From Acanthamoeba castellanii str. Neff (taxonomy: Eukaryota; Discosea; Longamoebia; Acanthamoebidae): a stretch of DNA of 64,000 nucleotides. The notes beneath the pieces were generated by a model. That model was given only the letters and a program-made list of their open reading frames with translations. It made no database searches and was not told the origin of the DNA. The stretch spans positions 324,243 to 388,242 of the forward strand of contig NW_004457712.1 in the NCBI RefSeq assembly GCF_000313135.1, read 5' to 3'. Both the position numbers and the translations under genes were made by a program. This document shows, in pieces, positions 14,126 to 63,920 of the stretch; within the stretch, counting starts at the first letter, position 1; each line of letters begins with the position of its first letter.

Positions 14126-17100
14126 TCACCAGGAGAGAGAGGAGCCAGAGCCGGAGGCGGCGGGCGGGTCGAAGCGGAGGAGGAGGGAGTGGGAGTCGGC
14201 GAGGTCCTTCTGGATCTTCTTGCGCATGTAGAAGATGGGGCAGTCGCACGAGGTGCAGAGCACCGTCTCGTGGAACGAACCCTGGCACCGCTGGCACTGG
14301 GTCCACGCCGACGCAAACTCCTGCTCGAGGCGATGCACGCGCGCCAGGCGCTCCTGGTAGTAGACGGCCTCCATCGGGCGGCAGTAGCGGCAGACCGAGG
14401 TCTCGCCTCCCACGAGCGGGGCCTTGCATCCCATGCACGACAGGGTGCGCTTGGCGAAGGAGACGATGCCGCCCACGGTCGGGGTCTGCACGGAGATGGT
14501 GCGGGTGTGCTCGCCGGTGAGCAGGCTCTCGGGGTTCTTGAGAATGGGCTTGAAGATACGGAGCAGGGGCTTCTCGAGCTGCTGGTGGAGGTAGTACTGG
14601 GCGTCGAGCGGGATGTTGTGCTCGAGCACGTGGAGCGGGTCCTCGGCGCGCTCGTAGGCGCGGGAGCCCTTGGCGCCCTTGACGATGACGTAGGGCACGC
14701 GGTCGCCCACCACGGGCGCCGATCCGGCGTCGCGCTTGGCCATCCGCTCGGCGAGCTCGACGTGGGCCTGCTTGGCCTTGTAGTCCTCGCTGTTGCGCGA
14801 GATCTGCTTCGTGATCACCAGCAGCGACAGATCGAGCCGATTGCACAGCAGGTCGGAGATGATCTGCTTCACGTAGTCCACGGCCGAGTCGATGTTGCGC
14901 TCGATGAGGATGCGGTCCAGACACTCCTGCACGACGTTGCGCACCAGCGCGCAGTTGTCGCGGCGCACCGTCTCGATACCCTTGGCGTCCATGTGGTCGT
15001 ACTTGTCGGGCCGGCCCCACCACAGCCCGGCGTAGCGCTTCTTGCTGATGAGCAGATACGGGTAGTACACCTTCTCGAACTCGAGCTTGATCGGCTGCTC
15101 GAAGCAGTGCTTCGTGATATACTCGGCCGCTTCCCTGCCCAATTTCATCGCCTGTACACACACCAGCCACCATCGAATAAGTACGCATGTTGTGTCGTGC
15201 GGTGTGTCGTGTGTCGTGTGCGTATGCACCTCCTCGACGGTCTTAACGCCAAAGTTGACCATGACCGAGTCCGTGTCACCGTAGATAACGTCAGCGGTGT
15301 GGGAGTAGCCGTTTTCCACGCGGTAGCGCTCCAGCACGGTGGCCTGGGTCTTTTCGATCATTTCACGGCCGTAGGCCGTGACGGCCGACGAAATGGCGAG
15401 ACACGGCAGCTTGCCGATCGTGGCGCCGGTGAAACCGTACACCGAGTTGGCCGACACCTTCAGAGCCAACTGCCTTCCGTTGAGCACAGCCTGGTGTTGT
15501 AAAGAAAGCCAGGTGTTGAGCAAAAACTCTGAGACAGAACCGTACACGCAAGCATTGAAATGTAGATGGACGGACCTGCTTGAAGGGATTCGTCTCTTTC
15601 TTCATCTCGGCCTTGGCCCGGGCGCGGGCCTCCAGAAGGCCGTTGAGAATGCGCGGCAGCAGGCCGGGCTTGGTCTCTTCCCGCACAAAGCACTCGCCTC
15701 CGGGACTCCGCTCATAGCTCTCCGCTGCAAAGTGCGGCACAACGTTAGGCCTTTCGTATGTAGTGTGACCCGAGTGGTTGCGAGGCGGACGTACGCGGGT
15801 GGGAGTTGACTTCGCCGGGAGCGAGAAGCGTGGAGTAGCAGAGGTTGTGGGCAATCATGATGGACGGGTACAACGAGGCGAAATCGAGGGTGGCGATGGG
15901 CACGTCGTAGTAGGCCGTCTTGGGGGCGATCACGATGGCGCCCTTGTAGCCCTTGCCGTCTTCTCCCGTGGGCTTGGCTACCTTGACTGTGTGGCATCGT
16001 TAAGGGGGGGGAAGTGTGAGTCTCTGACTTGATGAGCGAAGCTGGTGTGTGTGCAACGGTACCAGCGGGGATGAGGAGGTCCTCGGTGTTGGCGATACGG
16101 TAGAGCTGCGAGAGGACCTTGATTTGCTGACCACGCGTAAGGAGGAAGGCTATCGGGACACCCGTGACTCGTGCCATCTCTGCAACGCCACAGACGCGAT
16201 GGTGTGTGTCAGTGTGAGGAATGCGAGGAGTGACAGCAGTGTACGAGGAGGTACCGATGTAGTTGATGATGCACATGAGCTTGTCGAGCAGACGCTGTGG
16301 CAGTAACGCGTCCTTGATACAGTAAACGGCCAAGCGCCTCCGCTGGTCGTTTGTGCCATTGTACAAGTCTGTAATGATCGAGTGCTGTTGAGATGAGAGA
16401 ATGCGAAGTGAGCGATGGTCGTGGCATGTGCCTGAACGTAGTGGGTGTGGGAGGGCTGCAATGGCGCCATTACGCACATGCACGTCTTCTTTCTGCTCCT
16501 CCAAGAAGTGTTGAGAGACGTAGTTGAGTGTATAGGAGCGAAGCTTGTAGTCGCGTGTGATAACAAGCAAGACGTCGAGTTGCACGCGACCGCCGATCTT
16601 GATTTCTTTCGAGTCACGCTTGCCAAAGGCCTTCGACGAAAACGTCGTGTCCTTCATCGTGGAACGCTAAAGGGGAGAGGCGGGTGAGTGAGAGGGGGGG
16701 GGCAAACAAAAGCGCGGCAGGGGGAGCAATTCAGGGAGTACCTGAGCTTTGATGCGTCCCCAGAAGGGGAAGTCAACGAGGCCCAGCTTCTGGGCGCGCG
16801 TGAGCAGATACCAGATATCGAAGTTGATGATGTTGTAGCCGGTGAGGATGTCCGGGTCCACAATCTCCACGAACTTGCGCCACGCCAGAAGCATTTCCGC
16901 CTGCGATTGTGCATGAGCGCAAACAGCACGAACTGTCAGTCGCACACACAAAACTATATGCATTGACGAAAACGTACCTCTGTCCTGTAGCAACGCACTT
17001 CGGCGCCGGCGATGGGGCTGCACTTTTTGACGGTGAAAACGTTCTTTACGATCGGGCCGTTTTCTCCTTGCACAGACACGACGTTGGCGATCTGAATGAC

Positions 17101-50147: not shown

Positions 50148-53100
50148 ATGGAATTCTCACATTCCGCCGGCAGCGGTATCTTTTCGTTTGATCGACCCGT
50201 CCATGGATCGCGCGAGCGATGCTCTACGTGGGTCTTCGGCACCCCCACGCCCCAGCAAGTGGAAGAGAAATTCAACACAATGCGACCAGAGGACGCATAC
50301 ACGAAACTGGAAGAGGTAAGTGCTTGTTTCATCGTTGAATTGCATGGCTAGCTCAGCAGAGATCTCTAAATTAACTCTCGATTTAATGCACAGCTAATCT
50401 TGGAAGAAAAATATGACTTATTGTTGGTTGCGATGGAGGCTGTCCGACATCTTGAGGATAATGATGTATTGGTATTTACCTCCTTCGCTCGGTGCAGCTG
50501 CCGATTTCCCCCACGCTAACTTTTACCGCAACAGATACAAGCGGTGGTGTCAATAAGTGAAGCACACAACCGCATCTATGCTCTGCTGCGGCAGGCCATC
50601 CACCAGGAGGTGACCAATTTTACAGGTAGCTGCTGCATCGCACCCCTCGCATGTCGTGCCTTTCGCTAACCACTTGCGTTCAACACCAAAGCCAAAGCGA
50701 TGTTTCTTCTCTCCAGCACTTCCCTCTCTTCGGAGACCGACAAGCTCTCCATCTCTGCGTTCTTCCGAGAAGGGAGCACTGCCACGTATCTTCTGTCATC
50801 GTGGATGTTCCGGTAAGTGCCTCCTTCATCAACACGCTGACGGTTCTTGGTCTAACGCTAAGATCTTCATCTTTCTTCTCCTTAGGGAGGGTGAGCCGTA
50901 TCTACAGCGCACGCTGTACCCCTTTGTGTCTAATATTTGTAAAAACGAGGTGTGCTTCGAGATGGACCCGCATCGGGAAACGAATCCCGCGAAGGTGGAG
51001 TCCAATCTCTCCCGGCTACTGTGTACAGCCAAGCAAGTGGTGGATCACATCTGCTGCTCGCTTAACTCCATCCCAAAGTACCGTCATTCCCACTCTACAC
51101 CTGATCCCTGCAGCAACAGACTCACTCTCGTTTCGTCACCAGCATATTGCGGCGTATTTTTTGCTTCCTGGGCTCCGAGATCAAGCAGCGGTTCCCAGAG
51201 GAGGTCAACATGGTGCTCAGCGGATTCTTCTTCCTTCGCTTTTTGTGTCCGGCGCTCGTGACCCCCAACTTCTACGGCATTTGCAAGGGTATATCTCATC
51301 TCTGCCTCATTCTTGTGTGTAGTCATCCGCTCAACGTATGCTTGGTCCCTACAGAACAACCGTCTCCTATCGCCAGCCGTTCCTTAATTTTGCTATCCAA
51401 GTTACTCCAGACAGTGTCAACGGGAGCCGAGTTTGGCGTGAAGGAGGTACTTCGAGACCAACATTCATCATGTACGAGTCCAATGCTGGTGCTGATTCTC
51501 TTTGATTCACAGGAGTACCTTTCTATACCCGCCCTAAATAACTTCGTTGCGGCGTACACACCGAGCCTGAACAGATTCTTCGCCCTCCTTGTGGTACATC
51601 TCCCGTCCTACTTCACTCAAAAGCGTCCTACCCCGTCACTCACCGACATGGTGTCACAGGAGGAGGATCTCCTAGTCCCCATCCCCGTCCCAAACACCAA
51701 GGTGCTTGGTTCCAACGGGCTCACCAATGGAACGGATTCCAGTTGGATGTACAACAGCGGTAATTCGACGCTGAACCCCAAGTACCATGCAACAGACAAT
51801 AACGGGCTGTACGTATTGAACCTAGGTCTTGATAGCTCATTTGTTCTTGCTGACCTTTCCTCTTGACCCAGCAACGGCACTACGCAACAGGGAAGCTCTT
51901 CTGCTCCAAGCCCGAGTCCGGCTGCGATCTTCGCCGGCGGTTCGCCTAGAAGGAGCCGCGCTCTGACGCAGCTCTCGCTCTACTTTGATCGCTCCAGTCC
52001 TCCTGCGGCTTCAAGCATCTCGCCCTCGGCTGTCACTCCATCGCCGCTTGCTCAAGTGGTGCATTCGAACTCACTCAGCTTTCCCGCGGTCTCTGCGGAC
52101 CCACCGCCGCTGTTACACGCCCAGTCGCAGGGCCACCTCTCCACGCCATTGCCCCTCAGTACACACCACCACGGTCTACAGAGCGTATGTTCACCGCCCC
52201 AGCACGTGCACGCGATTAGCGATTCTCTATGCTGACATCGACCTTTTTTCTGGTATAACAGCCCGCAGCAGTTGCAATCACAGCTGCCGCTGTCGTGCAG
52301 CAGTCCCGACAGTCCTCGTCGCCCTCGTCTATTAAGAGATCGCGGGTGCTCAACAACTTCAAGGTACTGCGATCCCTGGATAACCGTACACCGCACATCT
52401 CACACCGCTTTGTATCCCTAGGTGGGCTCAATGCGGGGCAGTAAGACCAAAAAGAGCGCTCCCATGCTTCCTTCCTCTTCGCCCACCGTTCCCGAGCAGG
52501 ACTTCAACTCCACTCATACCAACGTCGCAGCCATTCGCATCATTCGGTACCCCATCAGTTGGTGCAACTGTGCGGGATGAACGACAAAACACTGACCTTG
52601 CGTATGACAGGGAGCTGGCCGGCGAGGTGGTAGACCTGCGGGCTCAGCTGAGCGAGGCGGAGAGCCAGCGTCGGCTGCTAAAGCTCAAGAACGAGCGTAT
52701 GGGAGAGCGCCTGCGCAGGCTCAACACCGAGACGGACACCGAACATGAGGAACGCGAACGCGTCGGCCAGCACACGGAGACCGAGACCGAGGAGGAAATG
52801 CGCGACAGCGGGCTCAGCACCAAGGAGGCCAGCGAGAAAGAGGTCCTGGACGCGATCGCCTGCGGGGCTAGCAGCGAGGAGGTGCTCGTGGTCATCAGCA
52901 GTCGGGCCAACCCCATGCTGCTCATCACCGAGGAGCGGAACGCTCAGCGAAGCATGAAGATGCACAAGCGAAAGCCGAAGCGCAAGGAGGACAAGGCGGC
53001 CAACGGAGGTGGCACGACCAAGAAGTGCGGCACGCTCAAGAAGAAGCGGAAACTGGGCTACCAGGGCGATGGCAGCGGTGCCGACAGCACCTACCGAGGA

Positions 53101-55836: not shown

Positions 55837-57276
55837 TTAGAAAACGAAGGAGCGAGCCTTGTCGAGTGTTTCCGCCGGCGAGCTCTTTCGGCACACGATG
55901 AACAGCTGCTGCAGAGCGGCCATGCTCACGCCCATACCTTCGTCCTCCTCCACCTTAGCGGTTTCCTCACCATCGGCTTCCGCCGTCTCCTCCTCGGCCT
56001 TCTTGTCCTTGACGTTGAGCAAACGCGAGGCAATCACCTCGGCAAACTCGTGGGCCAGCTCGCTCTCGTCGGGGTAGAAGTGCTGGAACAGGACCGCGGC
56101 CTGTGCCTTGGTGGCCGTGGTGAAGCGCACCTTGAGGTCCACGCGACCGGGCCGGATCAGGGCCGGGTCGAGCCGCTCCACGTGGTTGGTGGTGAGAATG
56201 AAGACCTGACCCTCGGGGTTGCACACACCATCGAGCGCGTTGAGCAGGCCCGAGAATGTGAGCGGCGCGTTGGCTGTGCCAGCGGCCTTCGAGTCGCGGT
56301 CGCGCGAGAACAGCGCGTCGACGTCCTCCATGACGATGAGCGAGTTGGCCGGTGCGGACTGCACGCACATCTGCAGGTTGTCGTCGGTGATGGCCGGATG
56401 GGCCGGCTGGAGGAAGCACACGTTGCGCTGCAGCTCGCCAGCCAGCGCGGTGATGAACGACGACTTGCCCGTGCCCGGCGGCCCGTAGAAGAGCATCGAG
56501 CGCTTGTAGGGGATGCCGTGGTGAGTGTACCACCTCGCGGTCTCGCGCGTGTCGAAATCGGTCAGATCGCTCACGACGGCGTCCTTGACGTCGGCCGGCA
56601 GAATGACGCTGTCGATGGGCCGCACCCGCTTCGTCGCCACCTTGTTCCAGTACATGTGCTGCGGCTTCCACATGTAGATGTTGTACCGTTTGTCGTCCTT
56701 CTCGCAGTCCCAGTCGAGCACGTGGTCGCAGAAGGCCGACAGGAGCGCCTGTTGGCCCTCGCCCGGCACCGACAGCACCATCGACGTGTAGAGGCTCACT
56801 CCGCACGGACCCCCGACAGGCTGGCCGATGGCCTGGTGGACCAGACGGATCAGGCGGCCCTGGAAGGTGACCTCATGGAGGCCCAGGCCCAGACGAAGCT
56901 CGGAGACCTCCTTGGTCGCGTCGCCTTTGGTGTCGGCGAGGCCGTCGTCGTCATCGCCCTCGTCGTCGCTGTAGGACGAGGGGTTTGACCGCTTGACGGT
57001 GCCGTCGGCGAGGAGCCAGCTGTGAGAGTGGTCCGAGGTCTTGTTGCCGTGGAGCGAGATGTAGCGCGAGATGACGCCGAAGAGCTTGTGCGAGGATTTG
57101 ATCTCGAGCATGGTCACGCCATCGCCGTCGCCCTGCTTGCCGGAGAGCTGGACGTAGGTCTGTGGCGAAACGGGCAGCAGCCGGAAGCCACCGGTGTGGT
57201 CTTGCAGGTGAGGGTCTTGCGGTGACTTGAGGCCGGAAGCGTCGTGGGTGTGGGCAGTGGCGGTCTTCATCATCAT
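55837..57276 (-). CDS. BCS1-like AAA ATPase without an N-terminal membrane anchor
   Basis: An uninterrupted 479-aa frame. The AAA module follows the BCS1 pattern: ARWYTHHGIPYKRSMLFYG leads into Walker A (GPPGTGKSS, 265-273). Walker B is SLIVMEDVDALF (312-323). TFSGLLNALDG and VFILTTNHVERLDPALIRPG (sensor 1 and arginine-finger region) follow. The N-terminal third carries a divergent BCS1-type region (VHQAIGQPV..SLYTSMVLSV). Mitochondrial BCS1 inserts the Rieske protein into complex III and has a membrane helix near residue 50. No such helix is visible here, and residues 100-122 form an acidic loop. It is thus more like the paralogous BCS1-like ATPases of plants, protists and fungi, whose roles vary. 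The C-tail is acidic (EEETAEADGEE). Confidence 0.85.
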   Translation of the reverse strand: MMMKTATAHTHDASGLKSPQDPHLQDHTGGFRLLPVSPQTYVQLSGKQGDGDGVTMLEIKSSHKLFGVISRYISLHGNKTSDHSHSWLLADGTVKRSNPSSYSDDEGDDDDGLADTKGDATKEVSELRLGLGLHEVTFQGRLIRLVHQAIGQPVGGPCGVSLYTSMVLSVPGEGQQALLSAFCDHVLDWDCEKDDKRYNIYMWKPQHMYWNKVATKRVRPIDSVILPADVKDAVVSDLTDFDTRETARWYTHHGIPYKRSMLFYGPPGTGKSSFITALAGELQRNVCFLQPAHPAITDDNLQMCVQSAPANSLIVMEDVDALFSRDRDSKAAGTANAPLTFSGLLNALDGVCNPEGQVFILTTNHVERLDPALIRPGRVDLKVRFTTATKAQAAVLFQHFYPDESELAHEFAEVIASRLLNVKDKKAEEETAEADGEETAKVEEDEGMGVSMAALQQLFIVCRKSSPAETLDKARSFVF

Positions 57277-57604
57277 CTTCTAGTATCGTCGATGAGGGTC
57301 TTGCTGTTGTGGGTCTTGCGGCGTGAGGTTCAGTTTATTCTGACTGCTGTTGTCGATGCACTGATGGCAATGACTTTCAGCATGACCCTATAGTGGTTTT
57401 TATACCAGCTGGTGTGGAAAAAGAAGAGAATTGGGGTGATGTCATCTTCACCAAAGGCGAACGTTCTTCTCCTCGAGCAGCAGACAGACTGTCGGGGACC
57501 CGAAAAAAGATAAAAAGAAAATACCAGGAAAATGCTGACTTCGTTTCGAAGAAAGGGAACGTGAAAGGGAATTTGTCTGGATCGTTCGGTCCATTGGCAT
57601 TGGC
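57277..57604. other. Intergenic between BCS1-like and secreted-protein genes
   Basis: No gene is supported; A-rich stretch near 57500-57530. Confidence 0.4.
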
Positions 57605-59520
57605 CTAGCTCGTGTAGCGGAGCCAGGTGATCTTGCCGAACCCGGTGGCGTTGTGCCCGGCCAGCAGCACCGACAATTGCGGGTCGTCTTGTCCGTTCAT
57701 GTCGATCGTTTGGATGCCTGTGCCGCCACACCGGGTGCAGAATTGGTGAACGATGAGCGGAGGAGGCTCAAATGCGCGGACAGCGGTACCGAGAGTGGGC
57801 AGCTGGTCGGCGGGTATCGGGCGTGAGTCTATGAATGTAGCTCTCTGATCGTCGTGAACGGCCACCCACGCTGTGTAGCCACCACCTGAAGGGTTGCCGC
57901 TCACCAGCATGGCCTGATCTGTTGTGGGTGGTGCAGTAAGTTCAACGGTGTGTTGGGGTCTGCTGGCGTCTACGTACTTGTGATTTGGTTGGCGCCGACA
58001 GCTTTGCCCCAGATGGTGCCCGGGCCGAGGCCCACAGACGCGAAAATGAGATTCCTATCCTGCAGGCTCCAGCCGTAGAGTGTTCCGTTGCTATTGCGCA
58101 ACTGCAGGATGCACCAAAGTAAACGCGTGCGAGTGAGTACAGAGCCACAAGAGTCTGCTGCCAGGTGTATCGTAGGCGAACCTGTGGCCAGAACAGGTAG
58201 TTGCCCCAGCCAAACATGTTATCGCAATCGGAGTCCAGGTACACCACGTGGCTGAACGACCTGGAGTCATGAATGCGCACACAACACAGCACACCGCATA
58301 CGAACGCGTCAGCTAAACGGGCGAGCAGACAAAGGGAGAAGGGTTCTTGAGTACAGCGAGTGAAAGTTGAAGTCGTTCTCCACATGAACGTCCACAATTT
58401 GTGCCAGATTCTTACCATTCAACGATGCCGTTCTGTTTGTTCATGACGGGGACCAACTGTGAGTGGACAGGTATGGTACGTGGTGTGTGGTGTTGTGTGG
58501 TGTGTGCGTGTGCGTGTGCGTGTGCGTGTGCGTGTGCGTGTGCGTGTGCGTGTGCGTGTGCGTGTGCGTGAACCTGGCGATGAACAAATTGCCCTTGTAG
58601 TAGGTGGCGCCAGCAATAAGAGTCACTGGGTACTGATTCACGAACTGCTGGCTCAGGTCCAGCTCTGCAACGATGGTGAACGTTGGAATACTGCGAGTGT
58701 AGAAGGGAGGTGTGAGAGGGCATGGCACCAGGCCTTGCGGGGTGGTGTGGAAGGCGTACTCAATGTAAACGATGTGATTGAGAGAGATGAGGAACAGGCT
58801 GCGGCGAGTGTTCAAATTGTCGGTGTCGGGGACGAGGTATTGGTAGTCCCTGACGGGAACGGAGACCTGATTGGGCGTGGTCCACTGGCCTGTGTTCAAA
58901 GTGAACACTGCGAAGCTCTGCGGGTATATGGAAGGGATTGCTGGTGGTCAGCTTGTTCTCGGGGGGGGGGCGAAGAGAGGCCATGCGTGCGCGTGCGGTG
59001 AAAGTGCGTACGACGGTGCTGGTGACGTTGGAGTATGTGTACAGTTCGGCGACATTCTGGCCCGTCTGGGTGTTGAGGCCAAAGCCCACGATCACGGCCA
59101 AGTTCGGAGCGTACTGCGGCGGTATCTGTATGACGACCAAGAAAGAACCGCGTCAAGAAAGAACGAAAAGGACTCCCGCGCAGGCTAACACGCACCCTAG
59201 CTCCGTAAATGCCAAGTCCGCTGCTGTCCGCGCTGCCCCACCATAGAATACGTTCGCTGAGGAACGAGTACACAGCGCCAAACACTGAAACGGATATCCA
59301 CCGGCTCCCGTAGTCGGCGAGGTTGAGAGTGTTGACAATCTGTATTCCTGTCCCCGCAGCTGAGGAGCACATGCGGTGAGAAACTCACTGTCACTGCTCC
59401 CCCCCAAGACGAAGCGAAGAAAAATAGGCGGGGGGGGGAGGGAAAGGGGCAAGTACCACCATGAAAGCGCACGGAGCTGAACAGAACGCAAAGGAACACG
59501 AGGCCAACAAGGTGCCTCAT
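57605..59520 (-). CDS. Predicted secreted protein, unknown family
   Basis: ATG 59520 opens a clear signal peptide (MRHLVGLVFLCVLFSSVRFH). The body is beta-strand-like and polar, in about seven exons. Examples are AGTGIQIVNTLNLADYGSRW, SVFGAVYSFLSERILWWGSA, NLAVIVGFGLNTQTGQNVAE, SVPVRDYQYLVPDTDNLN and SFSHVVYLDSDCDNMFGWGN. The end reads DDPQLSVLLAGHNATGFGKI. Alternating short GW/GxG turns and repeated AVFG/VVYLD-type strands suggest a beta-propeller-like fold, but I cannot name it. No membrane anchor is seen. The junction between the exon with YYKGNLFIAR and that with LVPVMNKQNGIVEW (58.4-58.6 kb) does not join in frame with standard splice sites. It lies beside a hexamer array and is a possible assembly error. 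It is divergent from the receptor-RasGAP gene, 284 bp away. Confidence 0.6.
58501..58570. repeat. (GTGTGC)n hexamer array in intron of secreted-protein gene
   Basis: About eleven units of the same hexamer as at 35907-35970, abutting the splice donor of the preceding exon on the minus strand. Confidence 0.92.
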
Positions 59521-59804: not shown

Positions 59805-62800
59805 ATGTCGCGTTTGGCGAGTGTTGTCGTTGTGGTTCTGCTTCTTGCAGGCCTTGGCTGGCCGGTACGCTCAGCCTTGGTGGCTTACTACAGCTTTGAT
59901 GATCGTACGTTGATCGCTTAGCCTGCAAGATGCTTCAGCACTCCTGTTAGTAACTCTTTTAATCTATCAGCCGATGCCCCGTTGGCAGGAGTGAGTGGCT
60001 ACTGCCCCAACGTCGTGCTTCGTAAGTAGCACCTCAGCTGATTCGCCCTTGTCTTCACTACTAACAACCTCGACCAAACCAGAACCGACACTTGCCGGCG
60101 GAGCAAAGGTGGTCAACGACAGCTGTCTGGCTGGTGGGTGCCTTCAAGCAGATGCAGGCTTCGCCTGTGCGTCTCCTTTTCTGCACACGTCGATATGTCG
60201 TGGGTTCACTAATGCACCGGAGTTGCACAACACTCCAATCGCAATATTTGGCACGCAGTGCTCACGACGTTCAAGCTCTTCCAGTACTCGGACGCATCGC
60301 AGGTCTCGGTGAGCGCCTGGGCAAGGACCGCGTCCACAGGACCACTTGGTGGCTACATCGTCTACAAGTCGGACTGGTTCTACTTCGTCTATCTCGACGG
60401 GGTACAAACCTTCAAATTAAATTAAGCTCACTGTTTCTCCACGAGTAGTGGGCCAACCACAACTCACACTTGCTCTGACTGGCCAGGCGTTTACATGCGT
60501 GATCATATCCAGCACCAAGGTCTTTTCCACAACAAGCGTCATCATGGCCTTATCGCACGACACCACCTACCACGTGGCATGCGCGCACGACGGCACCAAG
60601 CTGTGCGTCCATATCAACGGAAACGTGACGGTACAACAACACCACCCTGCGATGCCCAAGCGGCGCAAGCTAATCGCACTTCTCAAATGGAAGGAGTGCA
60701 CTGCGGGCAAGGGGCCGTTTTCGGAGGGAGGTCTTCTGTTCTTTGGCGGCGTGGGTGCTTCCTCGAGGTGGAATGGCACGGTCGACGAGGTAGGCATCCC
60801 TTGATTCGCAACATCGCATTTGTGTTGTTAGCTGATCACAATTGCAATCAGATCAAGCTCTATGACCACGGGCTCACACCGCAGGAGGTTAGCCAACTCG
60901 TAAACTTTGTTGAACCCAATGACGTGCCCTCCGTGCACATCGGTATGTGACTATAGCAAGGGCAACCTACCCCCTTTGCTCATTGATTTCTCTTGACGGG
61001 CAACACTCCAGAGAGCAACGGCACAGCTTTGAGCTCGCTCAACGTGGACTCCCTGACCAACGTCACCCTGACGACGGTGGTGCAAGACGCCCGCAAGGCC
61101 TACTCTGGCTCCGCACAAACCGTTGGGTATGAAGGCGAGATGCTCTACCAGTGGACCGTTTTGAGCAGCAACTGCGGTGGCATGCAGTTCAGTGCGCCAG
61201 CCAACCAGACTACCAACGTCGCCTTCTCCGCACTCGGCGCATCCACAGTACTCCTTACCCACGCACCCTTGGGGTCTCTGTCAGCACATGCACTGACAAG
61301 GCTTGCCGGTACAGATGAAGGTCTGCGTTTCAGATGGCGAGATTGCCGGCGAGTTCAACCTGTATACTGCGGCCGGAGCCAGCGTTCCCCAGCTTGTCTC
61401 CCAGCCACTGACCAGTGAGATCAATATCCCTGGTAACTCCATCACACCGGTCACTCCCTGTTTCTGTAGTGTCGCTGACCATGTGTCTTGTACAAATCAG
61501 AGGGTGTCATTGATTATCCAATCACGGTGGAGGGCATGAGCCTGCCGCCACCGTCGTACCAGTGGGAAAGACTGGCGCCCGTAGTGCATAACGACACCAA
61601 CATCGGCAACATTTCTGCCCGCTTTTACATGGGTGGCGAGGTGTGTACAAACAAGTGACACTGCTGCGCGACATTGACGCTGAGGAATGCACCGTGTCAT
61701 ATGCGCGCAGGAGGCCGGCCTGCCGGTTATGGCCGCTCTCAAAGAGAGATTGAGAGAAAAGAGACAGGAAGAGCCCATTTTGGTACGCCGCCTTCGTTTG
61801 ATGGAAGTCATCAACACCCGACAGCTCCCCACACAGTCCTACGCAGGCCTTCCAATCCATCCCTGGAGCCACGGAGAACACTCTGCATCTCAACGGCACA
61901 AAGGACTGGCATGGTGCGGTCATCCGATGCTTGGTGTTTACCACACGCAGCTCTACCCCGACCAACAACTTCACCATCTTCATCTCCTCCGCGTCCACAT
62001 CGTACGGAGCCTCTGCACCTTTGCTTGCAGCTAACATACGCCAGGTGAGCTGACCGAAGGCTACCACCACCTCCACAGGGACGGGTCATCGGACGCTACA
62101 CTTATTGGCGGAGTCGTGGGAGGCGTGGGCGGAGCGCTCTTCTTGCTCTGTCTTCTCCTTCTGCTTCTCGCGATCGTGGCTGTTTCGAGGCGCCGTCGCT
62201 CCGCGTACCGCAAGCTCACGCAGCCGGACTACGAGGCAATCGCCTTCGGAGACGTTAAAGAGGACGTCGCGCTGCCGAAGAAGCAGGCGGAGGTTGGTCC
62301 CCTTACTCTCCTTAGCACCAGCAGTCGTTGCTCACTGACCACTCCAACAGGAGTACCGGCAACTGGAACACCTGCTTACTGCGCCAGACCATCGGCTGGC
62401 CCTGGCCATTTGTGATGTGGCAGATATGAGCGATAAAGACACCGTACGAACGCTCAATCTCTCACCCTAACCGAGTAACTAATATCCCTGTGTGTTGGCT
62501 CCACACAGGTGTACAAAGCGGTGCTGCGGGTGCTGGCAGATCAGTTCCAGGCCTACAATCTCGTTGCGCACTCCATCACGCGCGAGGTGAGCATCGCCGA
62601 CGAAGAGGGCACGCTGTTCCGGTCCAACAGCGCGGCGGCCAAGCTCTTCACCCTATACATGCGCATGATCGCGCTCAAGTACACGTGGCACGTCTTGGTG
62701 CTGTCATTGCATTCCCTGAATGACAACGCTCGCGATGCCGACGCGGGTCGTTCCCGGGATGCCGGAAGCTCCCACGGAGCCAGCAGCAGCCGGTCGAAGG

Positions 62801-63920
62801 TCTTCGGAAACAAGTACCGAGTGGAACGGGACGACTCTGACTCTGATGAAGGCTCAGTATCGCTGGACATTCCGGGCGCCTCATCGATGGAACTCGATCC
62901 TCAGGTTCACCTTCGGCGTGGCCGTTTGCCGCGTCCACCACCAACCTTGGTTCGCACGTAGTTCTTGGCTAACCACATTCCACGCGGCAGAAACTGGACG
63001 AGGCGTCGGACCTGGACATCAACACTCTCGAGCTCTGGCTCACCGCTCAGAAGATGTTCAAACTCATCGTGCAGAGCGAAAAGAGCCTGCCGCGAGAACT
63101 GCGCATGCTCATCCGCCGCATCCGCGATGACGTACGCCTGGCCTGTCTTCGTCCCAATCGGTTGAGTATAGCCTGCTAATGCTGTGGGCACAGGTGGCGG
63201 AGAAGTTCAGCGATGAGGCCGTGTTCCGGGCCATGGGCGGATTCTTCTTCCTGCGCCTCATCTGCCCGGCCCTCCTTGCGCCTCAAGTTCACGGCCTCCT
63301 CGACGAGCCGCCTCATCCCGTACCTTCCACCCAAAAGCTTGCGCTCTTGATGGTTGGTAGTCACTCAACACGCGGATTGACTGACTTGGCGCGGTTTGTG
63401 GTGGTGGGTACAGATGGCGCAGCGGCAGCTGATTCTGGTGACCAAGGTGCTCCAAAACCTGGCCAACGACACCCTGCCCGGAGCTAAAGAGGTACCACCC
63501 TCATCATCTTGGATGTGGCCTTGCTTTTGCACCGGAACTGATTCAAAGGTGTACCTCTACCATACACAGGCGTACATGGAGCGGCTCAACGCGTTCATTG
63601 TGTCCAACAAGCCCGCCCTCAGTCGCTTCTACGACCAGATCGTGGACCACCCGGAGCGCGGCAAGCTCACCGACATCACCGTACGCTTTCACTGGATCCA
63701 ATCCTGGCGCAATCCACCTAACTCTTCAACCAACCACTAGGTGCCAGCACGCGCTCGCAACGATGCACTCATCAAGCTGCGCACATTTTTGGAGGCCAAC
63801 CTGGCTGGCGTGGAGGCCCACCTCCGCGCCCATGGCGATGACAGCGACGAGAGCGAAGAAGTTGTGCTGGAGCTGCGACGTATTCTGCACAAGGAGTCGT
63901 CCGCCATCGACCAAGTGTGA
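59805..63920 (+). CDS. Receptor-type RasGAP: LamG-like, PKD/REJ-like and Ig-like ectodomain, one TM helix, cytoplasmic RasGAP
   Basis: ATG 59805 starts a signal peptide (MSRLASVVVVVLLLAGLGWP). A LamG/concanavalin-like domain follows (LVAYYSFDD; VVNDSCLAGGCLQAD; TYHVACAHDGTKLCVHING; LLFFGGV..RWNGTVDE; IKLYDHGLTPQEV). Next is a PKD/REJ-like part (LYQWTVLSSNCGGMQFSAP; KVCVSDGEIAGEF). An Ig-like part comes next (PPPSYQWERLAP; NTLHLNGTKDWHGAVIRCLV). A single helix (GGALFLLCLLLLLLAIVAV) with RRRR stop-transfer leads to RKLTQPDYEAIAFGD. The cytoplasmic half is RasGAP: VYKAVLRVLADQFQAYNLVA, arginine-finger loop EGTLFRSNSAAAKLF, and signature MGGFFFLRLICPALLAP. It ends SSAIDQV at 63920. More than a dozen exons. 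It would couple outside binding to Ras inactivation. Plexins share the plan but have sema/PSI/IPT ectodomains. Confidence 0.82.

Follow-up and report, generated by a model that had tools for sequence, protein, structure and literature searches.

A putative single-pass receptor RasGAP of Acanthamoeba castellanii and the amoeban family to which it belongs

The window analysed here is a stretch of 64,000 nucleotides of the Acanthamoeba castellanii str. Neff genome (contig NW_004457712.1, positions 324,243 to 388,242, forward strand). Near its end lies a single plus-strand gene, referred to as gene A, that joins an adhesion-type ectodomain, one transmembrane (TM) helix and a Ras GTPase-activating protein (RasGAP) domain. 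Gene A occupies 59805-63920, with its ATG at 59805 and a TGA ending at 63920, exactly as in an initial annotation made from the sequence alone. Twenty exons (59805-59904, 59971-60021, 60083-60166, 60259-60401, 60487-60630, 60694-60789, 60852-60942, 61012-61247, 61315-61432, 61501-61640, 61711-61782, 61847-62001, 62079-62292, 62351-62443, 62509-62904, 62991-63131, 63194-63319, 63414-63491, 63570-63680 and 63741-63920) join into one continuous open frame of 922 residues, and all 19 introns, 58-94 nucleotides long, are of the GT-AG type. The exon map was drawn by hand from reading frames and splice signals and checked by protein-to-genome spliced alignment to a homologue, P0001, which gave the identical start, most of the exon ends and the intron after exon 5. 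Two boundaries, exon 4/5 and exon 10/11, are uncertain, the automatic alignment having placed different sites there. An earlier model of 18 exons and 930 residues was replaced when homologues exposed a missed exon of 24 residues, an over-long exon and an unspliced intron. Counting an intron position as common if it falls within 2 alignment columns in the same phase, 18 of the 19 introns match in one or more of the three tandem paralogues, 16 of them in every one.

Transcript evidence comes from relatives of gene A. P0001 corresponds to the adjacent paralogue, gene B, at 99.1% in spliced alignment, and its transcript-like contig of 2,987 bases encodes ectodomain, TM helix and GAP together. This contig is shorter than the 4.3 kb of gene B and is therefore spliced. 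P0003, from a contig of 3,007 bases that is likewise shorter than its gene, matches a locus on contig C101 in pieces at 90 and 97%. The EukProt proteins P0012 and P0014, which carry Trinity names, each bear both domains, and TM helix and GAP stand in one protein in 14/14 aligned family members. The initial annotation had considered that the ectodomain and the GAP might prove to be two separate genes; for the family that reading fails because paralogue B is one spliced transcript.

The encoded protein opens with a signal peptide assigned by eye (59805..59873, residues 1-23, MSRLASVVVVVLLLAGLGWPVRS). It is followed by a LamG/ConA-like lectin domain (59874..60941, residues 24-236), within which Pfam Laminin_G_3 matches residues 91-220 at E 1.1e-13. 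A PKD-like domain (60942..61431, residues 237-354) and an Ig-like domain (61432..61990, residues 355-473, PPPSYQW ... IRCLV) complete the putative extracellular part. The TM helix (62122..62184, residues 492-512) has a mean hydropathy of 2.90, is followed by SRRRR, and is the only TM-like window apart from the signal peptide; in the predicted model of P0001 the helix spans 522-543. Ten N-glycosylation sequons precede the helix and one follows it.

Among 14 homologues, Pfam lists RasGAP in 14, Laminin_G_3 in 12, Ig_3 in 7, I-set in 5 and K319L-like_PKD in 4. Searched against PDB chains, a family profile picks up titin (4.1e-11) as well as the lectin domain of an arabinanase (6e-14). These family-level matches together support the LamG, PKD-like and Ig-like parts at the level of the family. 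The signal peptide, LamG-like part and single TM helix with RRRR named in the initial annotation are thus present. Its PKD/REJ-like and Ig-like parts fared unevenly: a profile search of the parts finds LamG and RasGAP in gene A itself and Ig and PKD among the homologues only, and no REJ family is listed by Pfam for gene A or the 14 homologues. Foldseek matches to the LamG part include ConA-like domains of sialidases and clostridial toxins, which are read as reflecting only a common lectin fold. In a search with the ectodomain of a 943-residue draft, P0001 was the sole match at E≤0.001; only 7,997 candidates sharing most words were scored, so more distant ectodomain relatives may be missed.

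On the presumed inner side of the membrane, the RasGAP domain (62563..63467, Pfam match about residues 598-818, ends approximate) matches PF00616 at E 3.4e-27, with 96.1 bits against a curated cut-off of 28.3. The arginine-finger loop LFRSNS (62614-62631) aligns to LFRATT of p120GAP, which phmmer finds at 5.2e-27 with the 930-residue draft, and the FLR motif and QNLAN..K are likewise aligned to p120GAP. The conserved motifs lie at 63242-63283 (FFFLRLICPALLAP) and 63447-63491 (VLQNLANDTLPGAKE). FLRxxxPAxxxP defines the RasGAP motif in the available part of a study of IQGAPs (PMC12871552), and it is matched in gene A by FLRLICPALLAP, within 63242-63283. Both the LFRSNSAAA and the FFFLRLICPAL quoted in the initial annotation are in place. 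Across 19/19 family members the finger R, the LR of FLR and QNLAN do not vary; in some relatives the F of FLR is W. A low-complexity insert of about 52 residues (62728-62883) interrupts the domain, and the corresponding stretch of the P0001 model mostly has a predicted local distance difference test (pLDDT) score below 50. The C-terminal tail and stop codon occupy exon 20 (63741..63920), and helices are predicted at 895-941 in the P0001 model. No cytoplasmic Pfam domain beyond the GAP was found in the scan of gene A. By sequence, the domain is a canonical RasGAP of the neurofibromin/p120 type, and it is probably active.

Between membrane and GAP lies a conserved juxtamembrane motif, PDYEAIAF in gene A (62224..62247), 88 residues before the finger. 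It is shared by 25 receptor-type proteins, in which it lies 88-109 residues before the finger. The pattern P[DNSE]x?[YFW]xx[ILVFA]x[FYW] occurs in 20/20 receptor-type proteins whose finger is recognised, against 0/26 usable control RasGAPs, 19 of the controls being near-identical fish SynGAPs and the pattern having been written from the receptors themselves. Outside these counts stand P0025, P0018 and P0052, in which no finger is recognised by its own pattern, and the controls P0016 and P0026, whose N-termini are too short. By eye, variants of the motif read EPN[YF]QxLVW at the loci with a 5'-nucleotidase-like ectodomain and EPDYYQLVT at the CUB locus. Across two predicted models the motif has a pLDDT of 79-84 (81-82 in P0001), and the stretch directly inside the membrane scores lower, at 45 and 55. 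A conserved segment predicted to be ordered beside the GAP suggests a coupling element.

Gene A is the first of four tandem paralogues that lie head to tail on contig C9. As aligned and in window coordinates, gene A (59805-63920) is followed by gene B at 64072-68367, gene C at 68638-72857 and gene D at 74124-78327, the last three beyond the window. The cytoplasmic halves of B-D are 76-83% identical to that of gene A and the ectodomains 40-42%, the pattern expected of changing ectodomains on a conserved output. Near the GAP start, two introns show unusual similarity between C and D (0.83 and 0.86; shuffled, 0.54 and 0.56), and the introns of gene A compared with those of B and D are near shuffled levels; this is a hint of gene conversion for the C-D introns near the GAP start and for no other pair. 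Gene B corresponds to the A. castellanii Neff protein P0002, annotated without its LamG part, and the Neff database protein P0008 is a copy of the family on contig C246. Both are named merely as Ras GTPase activators, without mention of the receptor architecture. In the assembly, gene B (locus L010) has a frame break near FFFLRLICPAL, at about 67.6-67.7 kb in window-extended coordinates; P0001 is intact at this site, and the Neff annotation P0002 reads differently near the motif.

Receptor RasGAPs are not confined to the array. The genome holds 53 RasGAP matches at E≤0.001, which fall into at least 35 loci, and 29 of these 35 were examined (A-D, the locus at 50.9 kb in the window and 24 loci, L013-L036). 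Twelve of the 29 are receptor-type: eight LamG (A-D, L014, L018, L020 and L021), three 5'-nucleotidase-like and one CUB. The three nucleotidase-type loci each combine a 5'-nucleotidase C-terminal match before the TM helix, the EPN[YF]Q motif and a RasGAP: L029 (C124:940500-950499; 3.3e-9, with a weak EGF match), L034 (C79:519000-524999; 1.8e-6) and L035 (C124:950500-953999; 1.3e-9). L033 (C90:391500-397499), found as a single copy, combines a CUB match (1.5e-5), a TM helix and a RasGAP with a FRED finger loop. In a crude test, the other 17 loci have no convincing TM helix within 1.6 kb upstream (2.2 kb for the 50.9-kb locus). The underlying scan is of the hydropathy of frame pieces, in which repeats and neighbouring genes give false windows, and was judged by eye. 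Upstream of the 50.9-kb RasGAP lies a hydrophobic window that looks like a neighbouring transporter; it was left out of the count. Next to the six remaining RasGAP loci, genome-wide family searches gave neither a Laminin_G_3 nor a 5_nucleotid_C match. The Laminin_G_3 search detected just 2 of the 8 LamG receptor loci, so its silence elsewhere means little; the 5'-nucleotidase search detected all three loci of its type.

The family extends beyond this genome. Balamuthia mandrillaris has three LamG-type receptor RasGAPs (P0022, P0023 and P0024), which bear the misleading database names IRA2 or BUD2/CLA2. P0025, from another source, is an EGF-TM-RasGAP and represents a fourth ectodomain type. Gene A is no isolated case, being a member of a tandem array of four in a genome that has three ectodomain types. 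On sequence comparison, gene A belongs to an amoeban receptor RasGAP family in which one TM-juxtamembrane-GAP module is combined with different ectodomains.

GAP trees agree with this grouping. In a first tree of 53 rows, made of 28 receptor-type rows (23 LamG, 3 nucleotidase, 1 CUB and 1 EGF) and 25 other RasGAPs, 28/28 receptor-type rows fall on one side of a branch with support 100/99. A second tree (51 rows, 23 others), cut close to the finger with the juxtamembrane segment removed, gives the identical split at 100/99, its bootstrap not settled, its CUB and EGF rows forming long branches and its nucleotidase rows meeting the CUB row as long branches. Neither tree has an outside root or a plexin row. 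Rows were labelled by TM helix and ectodomain, or by family where truncated; the LamG-labelled rows P0004, P0011, P0015, P0019 and P0020 lack a precomputed Laminin_G_3 match. Near-copies of kept rows (P0001, P0002, P0008, P0010, L018 and L020) were left out, as were P0029-P0031 and P0034-P0052, and the gene represented by C246 and P0008 is wholly absent from both trees. SynGAP P0033 and nGAP P0032, in which no finger is recognised by pattern, are absent from the second. The one-sided grouping of four ectodomain types fits one TM-GAP module fitted with different ectodomains, and the trees allow, without proving, a single origin of receptor-type GAPs. The RasGAP phylogeny proposed in the initial annotation thus separates receptor rows from other RasGAPs, among rows that include no plexin. 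A further RasGAP gene of the window (50956-51599) is not receptor-type by tree position and sits on a very long branch.

It is likely, in our judgement, that gene A encodes a receptor that spans the membrane once and has a canonical, probably active RasGAP inside the cell, through which contact would control local Ras inactivation. Its ectodomain, with a LamG lectin fold, PKD-like and Ig-like parts, would meet an external surface or ligand. Contact would then cluster the receptor or shift the conserved juxtamembrane segment, predicted to be ordered next to the GAP, and either event would raise or localise GAP activity. Ras-GTP would be switched off under the membrane at the contact site, for example in shaping pseudopods or feeding cups; the ligand control and Ras shut-off proposed in the initial annotation likewise stand as inference. 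In Dictyostelium, patches of active Ras organise feeding cups (PMC5154761, available in part).

Several results weigh against this reading. No transcript of gene A itself was found in a search with the 930-residue draft that scored 7,996 candidates sharing most words (proteins of 0.55-1.75 times the length), the best match to the GAP half being the paralogue P0001 at 76%. The Ig and PKD families are unlisted for gene A alone in the Pfam scan at E≤10, which listed four families and in which HMMER filters discard most matches above about 0.1. The juxtamembrane controls are dominated by fish SynGAPs, and the pattern was derived from the proteins in which it was counted. No positive selection was found among A-D: the ratio of nonsynonymous to synonymous substitution rates (dN/dS) stays under 1 in 23 of the 24 region-pairs and is inestimable in the remaining one (A-B Ig, dS infinite), dS approaches saturation in parts of the ectodomain, and the figures for gene B include a short misread stretch at its frame break. 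Positive selection on the ectodomains is accordingly unsupported.

The main competing explanation is a RasGAP that is anchored in the membrane and constitutively active, and whose ectodomain would only place the protein, at an adhesion, a cup or the rear, without gating it. In its favour, LamG and Ig are common adhesion modules, and the GAP has the catalytic residues of p120GAP with no further Pfam domain in the cytoplasm. Against it stands the juxtamembrane motif, present in every counted receptor and in no control and predicted to be ordered by the GAP, which suggests a coupling element. We regard constitutive activity as a plausible alternative that falls short of an even chance.

To our knowledge, a receptor that directly bears a GAP for the Ras family is known only from plexins, the semaphorin receptors of animals. 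Gene A, like the plexins, has a single TM helix and a GAP-fold domain that would lie inside the cell, and the plexin-like overall plan built from different ectodomain modules, as put forward in the initial annotation, is borne out by Pfam, the TM helix and the models. Unlike the plexins, it has no Sema, PSI or IPT/TIG match (Pfam, E≤10), and its GAP contains no Rho-GTPase-binding domain, the long insert being the low-complexity one. The cytoplasmic GAP of plexins forms a Pfam family of its own, which is unlisted for gene A at E≤10; PF00616 is listed instead. Sequence profiles of the gene A family find NF1, p120GAP and SynGAP, not plexins: no plexin is among 22 matches at E≤10 of the juxtamembrane-to-finger profile, or among 60 of 217 matches listed for the whole-protein profile (PDB chains). 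A Pro lies four residues after the FLR Arg of gene A, at a position equated by spacing, not by plexin alignment, with Asn1005 of PlexinC1, a residue tied to Rap specificity. A plexin study assigns Arg1001/Asn1005 to PlexinC1 and a Pro to p120GAP and neurofibromin, and describes plexins as acting on Rap by a non-canonical mechanism (PMC3787391).

Among predicted structures, each of the 10 listed plexin entries aligns in either model from the juxtamembrane segment on (547-552; 631-635), whereas the listed canonical and IQGAP chains start later, at 563 or beyond in the first model and 649 or beyond in the second. Identity of the P0001 model to plexins is 10-14%, against 24-30% to p120GAP, NF1 and SynGAP, a comparison that is uneven because several p120GAP and NF1 constructs begin where the alignment begins; in the second model the plexins reach 15-19%, close to the 18-20% of p120GAP. 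The plexin alignment from the juxtamembrane segment may reflect construct start points, convergence or common ancestry, and in these models the fold alone does not set the gene A GAP apart from plexins. Membership of the plexins was rejected on Pfam and the profile search of PDB chains: the sequence is that of a canonical GAP, and the fold gives no verdict either way. The independent invention suggested in the initial annotation is favoured by profiles and Pfam, but is not proven, since plexin chains align from the juxtamembrane segment on.

Two broader histories can be drawn from these comparisons. In one, receptor RasGAPs would be an old amoeban 'Ras-off' class whose ectodomains have been swapped (LamG-PKD-Ig, 5'-nucleotidase-EGF, CUB, EGF), with a juxtamembrane gate placed as in plexins, and the plexin receptor-GAP may descend from the module instead of having been invented on the animal side; we hold this to be unlikely. 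In the other, plexins and amoeban receptor RasGAPs would derive from one ancestral TM-juxtamembrane-GAP receptor, so that the plan was inherited and not reinvented. The profile searches and the lack of the plexin-type Pfam family argue against such an ancestor, as does the lower identity of the P0001 model to plexins, uneven as that comparison is, and we think it quite unlikely.

The GAP fold can also lose its activity. IQGAPs, in the available part of PMC12871552, are described as a GAP fold that has done so, its finger Arg being replaced by Thr and its FLR motif altered. A catalytically dead scaffold that binds Ras as an effector, like IQGAP, is therefore a conceivable reading of gene A. Unlike IQGAP, gene A keeps the finger Arg and the FLR motif, and the finger R, LR and QNLAN are invariant throughout the family members compared, so a dead scaffold seems very improbable. 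Least credible of all is an artefact in which the gene for a secreted lectin-like protein and an adjacent soluble GAP gene were joined by chance, which can appeal to the missing transcript of gene A and is rejected on the P0001 and P0003 contigs that run through ectodomain, TM helix and GAP, the 14/14 aligned members with TM helix and GAP in one protein, the introns conserved across the ectodomain/GAP junction and the match of the whole protein family in the same order, which excludes chance for the order of parts in gene A.

The receptor architecture of gene A recalls other signalling proteins. p120GAP (RASA1), neurofibromin and SynGAP are not receptors, whereas in gene A the GAP shares one protein with a TM helix and an adhesion-type ectodomain. 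The seven-TM regulator of G-protein signalling (7TM-RGS) proteins, for example of Naegleria, are likewise membrane proteins with their own G-protein regulator, but as described in the available part of the source they have seven TM helices and an RGS domain that acts on heterotrimeric G-alpha, not Ras. Acanthamoeba receptor nucleotidyl cyclases are also amoeban single-pass receptors with enzymatic cytoplasmic halves; they differ in carrying cyclase and kinase domains, and the available part of their description does not mention a GAP (Clarke 2013).

There appears to be an entire family of amoeban proteins that couple a canonical RasGAP directly to adhesion-type ectodomains, an architecture that database names (IRA2, BUD2, plain GTPase activator) conceal. 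If active, receptor RasGAPs would link contact outside the cell directly to local Ras inactivation. With this family two questions can be put to the test, namely how an ectodomain can gate a RasGAP and whether receptor-GAP signalling arose once or more often. A literature search, with most subscription journals outside its reach, found no paper on an amoeban receptor RasGAP, and the term 'RasGAP' is absent from the available portion of the main text of the Acanthamoeba genome paper (PMC4053784). Database annotation does show the two domains together; the architecture is thus on record, though apparently undiscussed. The same portion of the genome paper describes two proteins whose Ig domains are I-set-like and whose TM segments are weakly predicted (PMC4053784), and these might belong to the receptor RasGAP family.

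Elsewhere in the window, the minus strand encodes a BCS1-like AAA ATPase at 55840-57279 (AAA 2.7e-20, BCS1 lid 4.9e-10) and the C-terminal part of a DNA polymerase delta-type catalytic subunit at 14129-15601 (DNA_pol_B 1.5e-100, zf-C4pol 1.2e-17). A long GT/GC-rich simple repeat lies upstream of gene A, at about 58450-58570.

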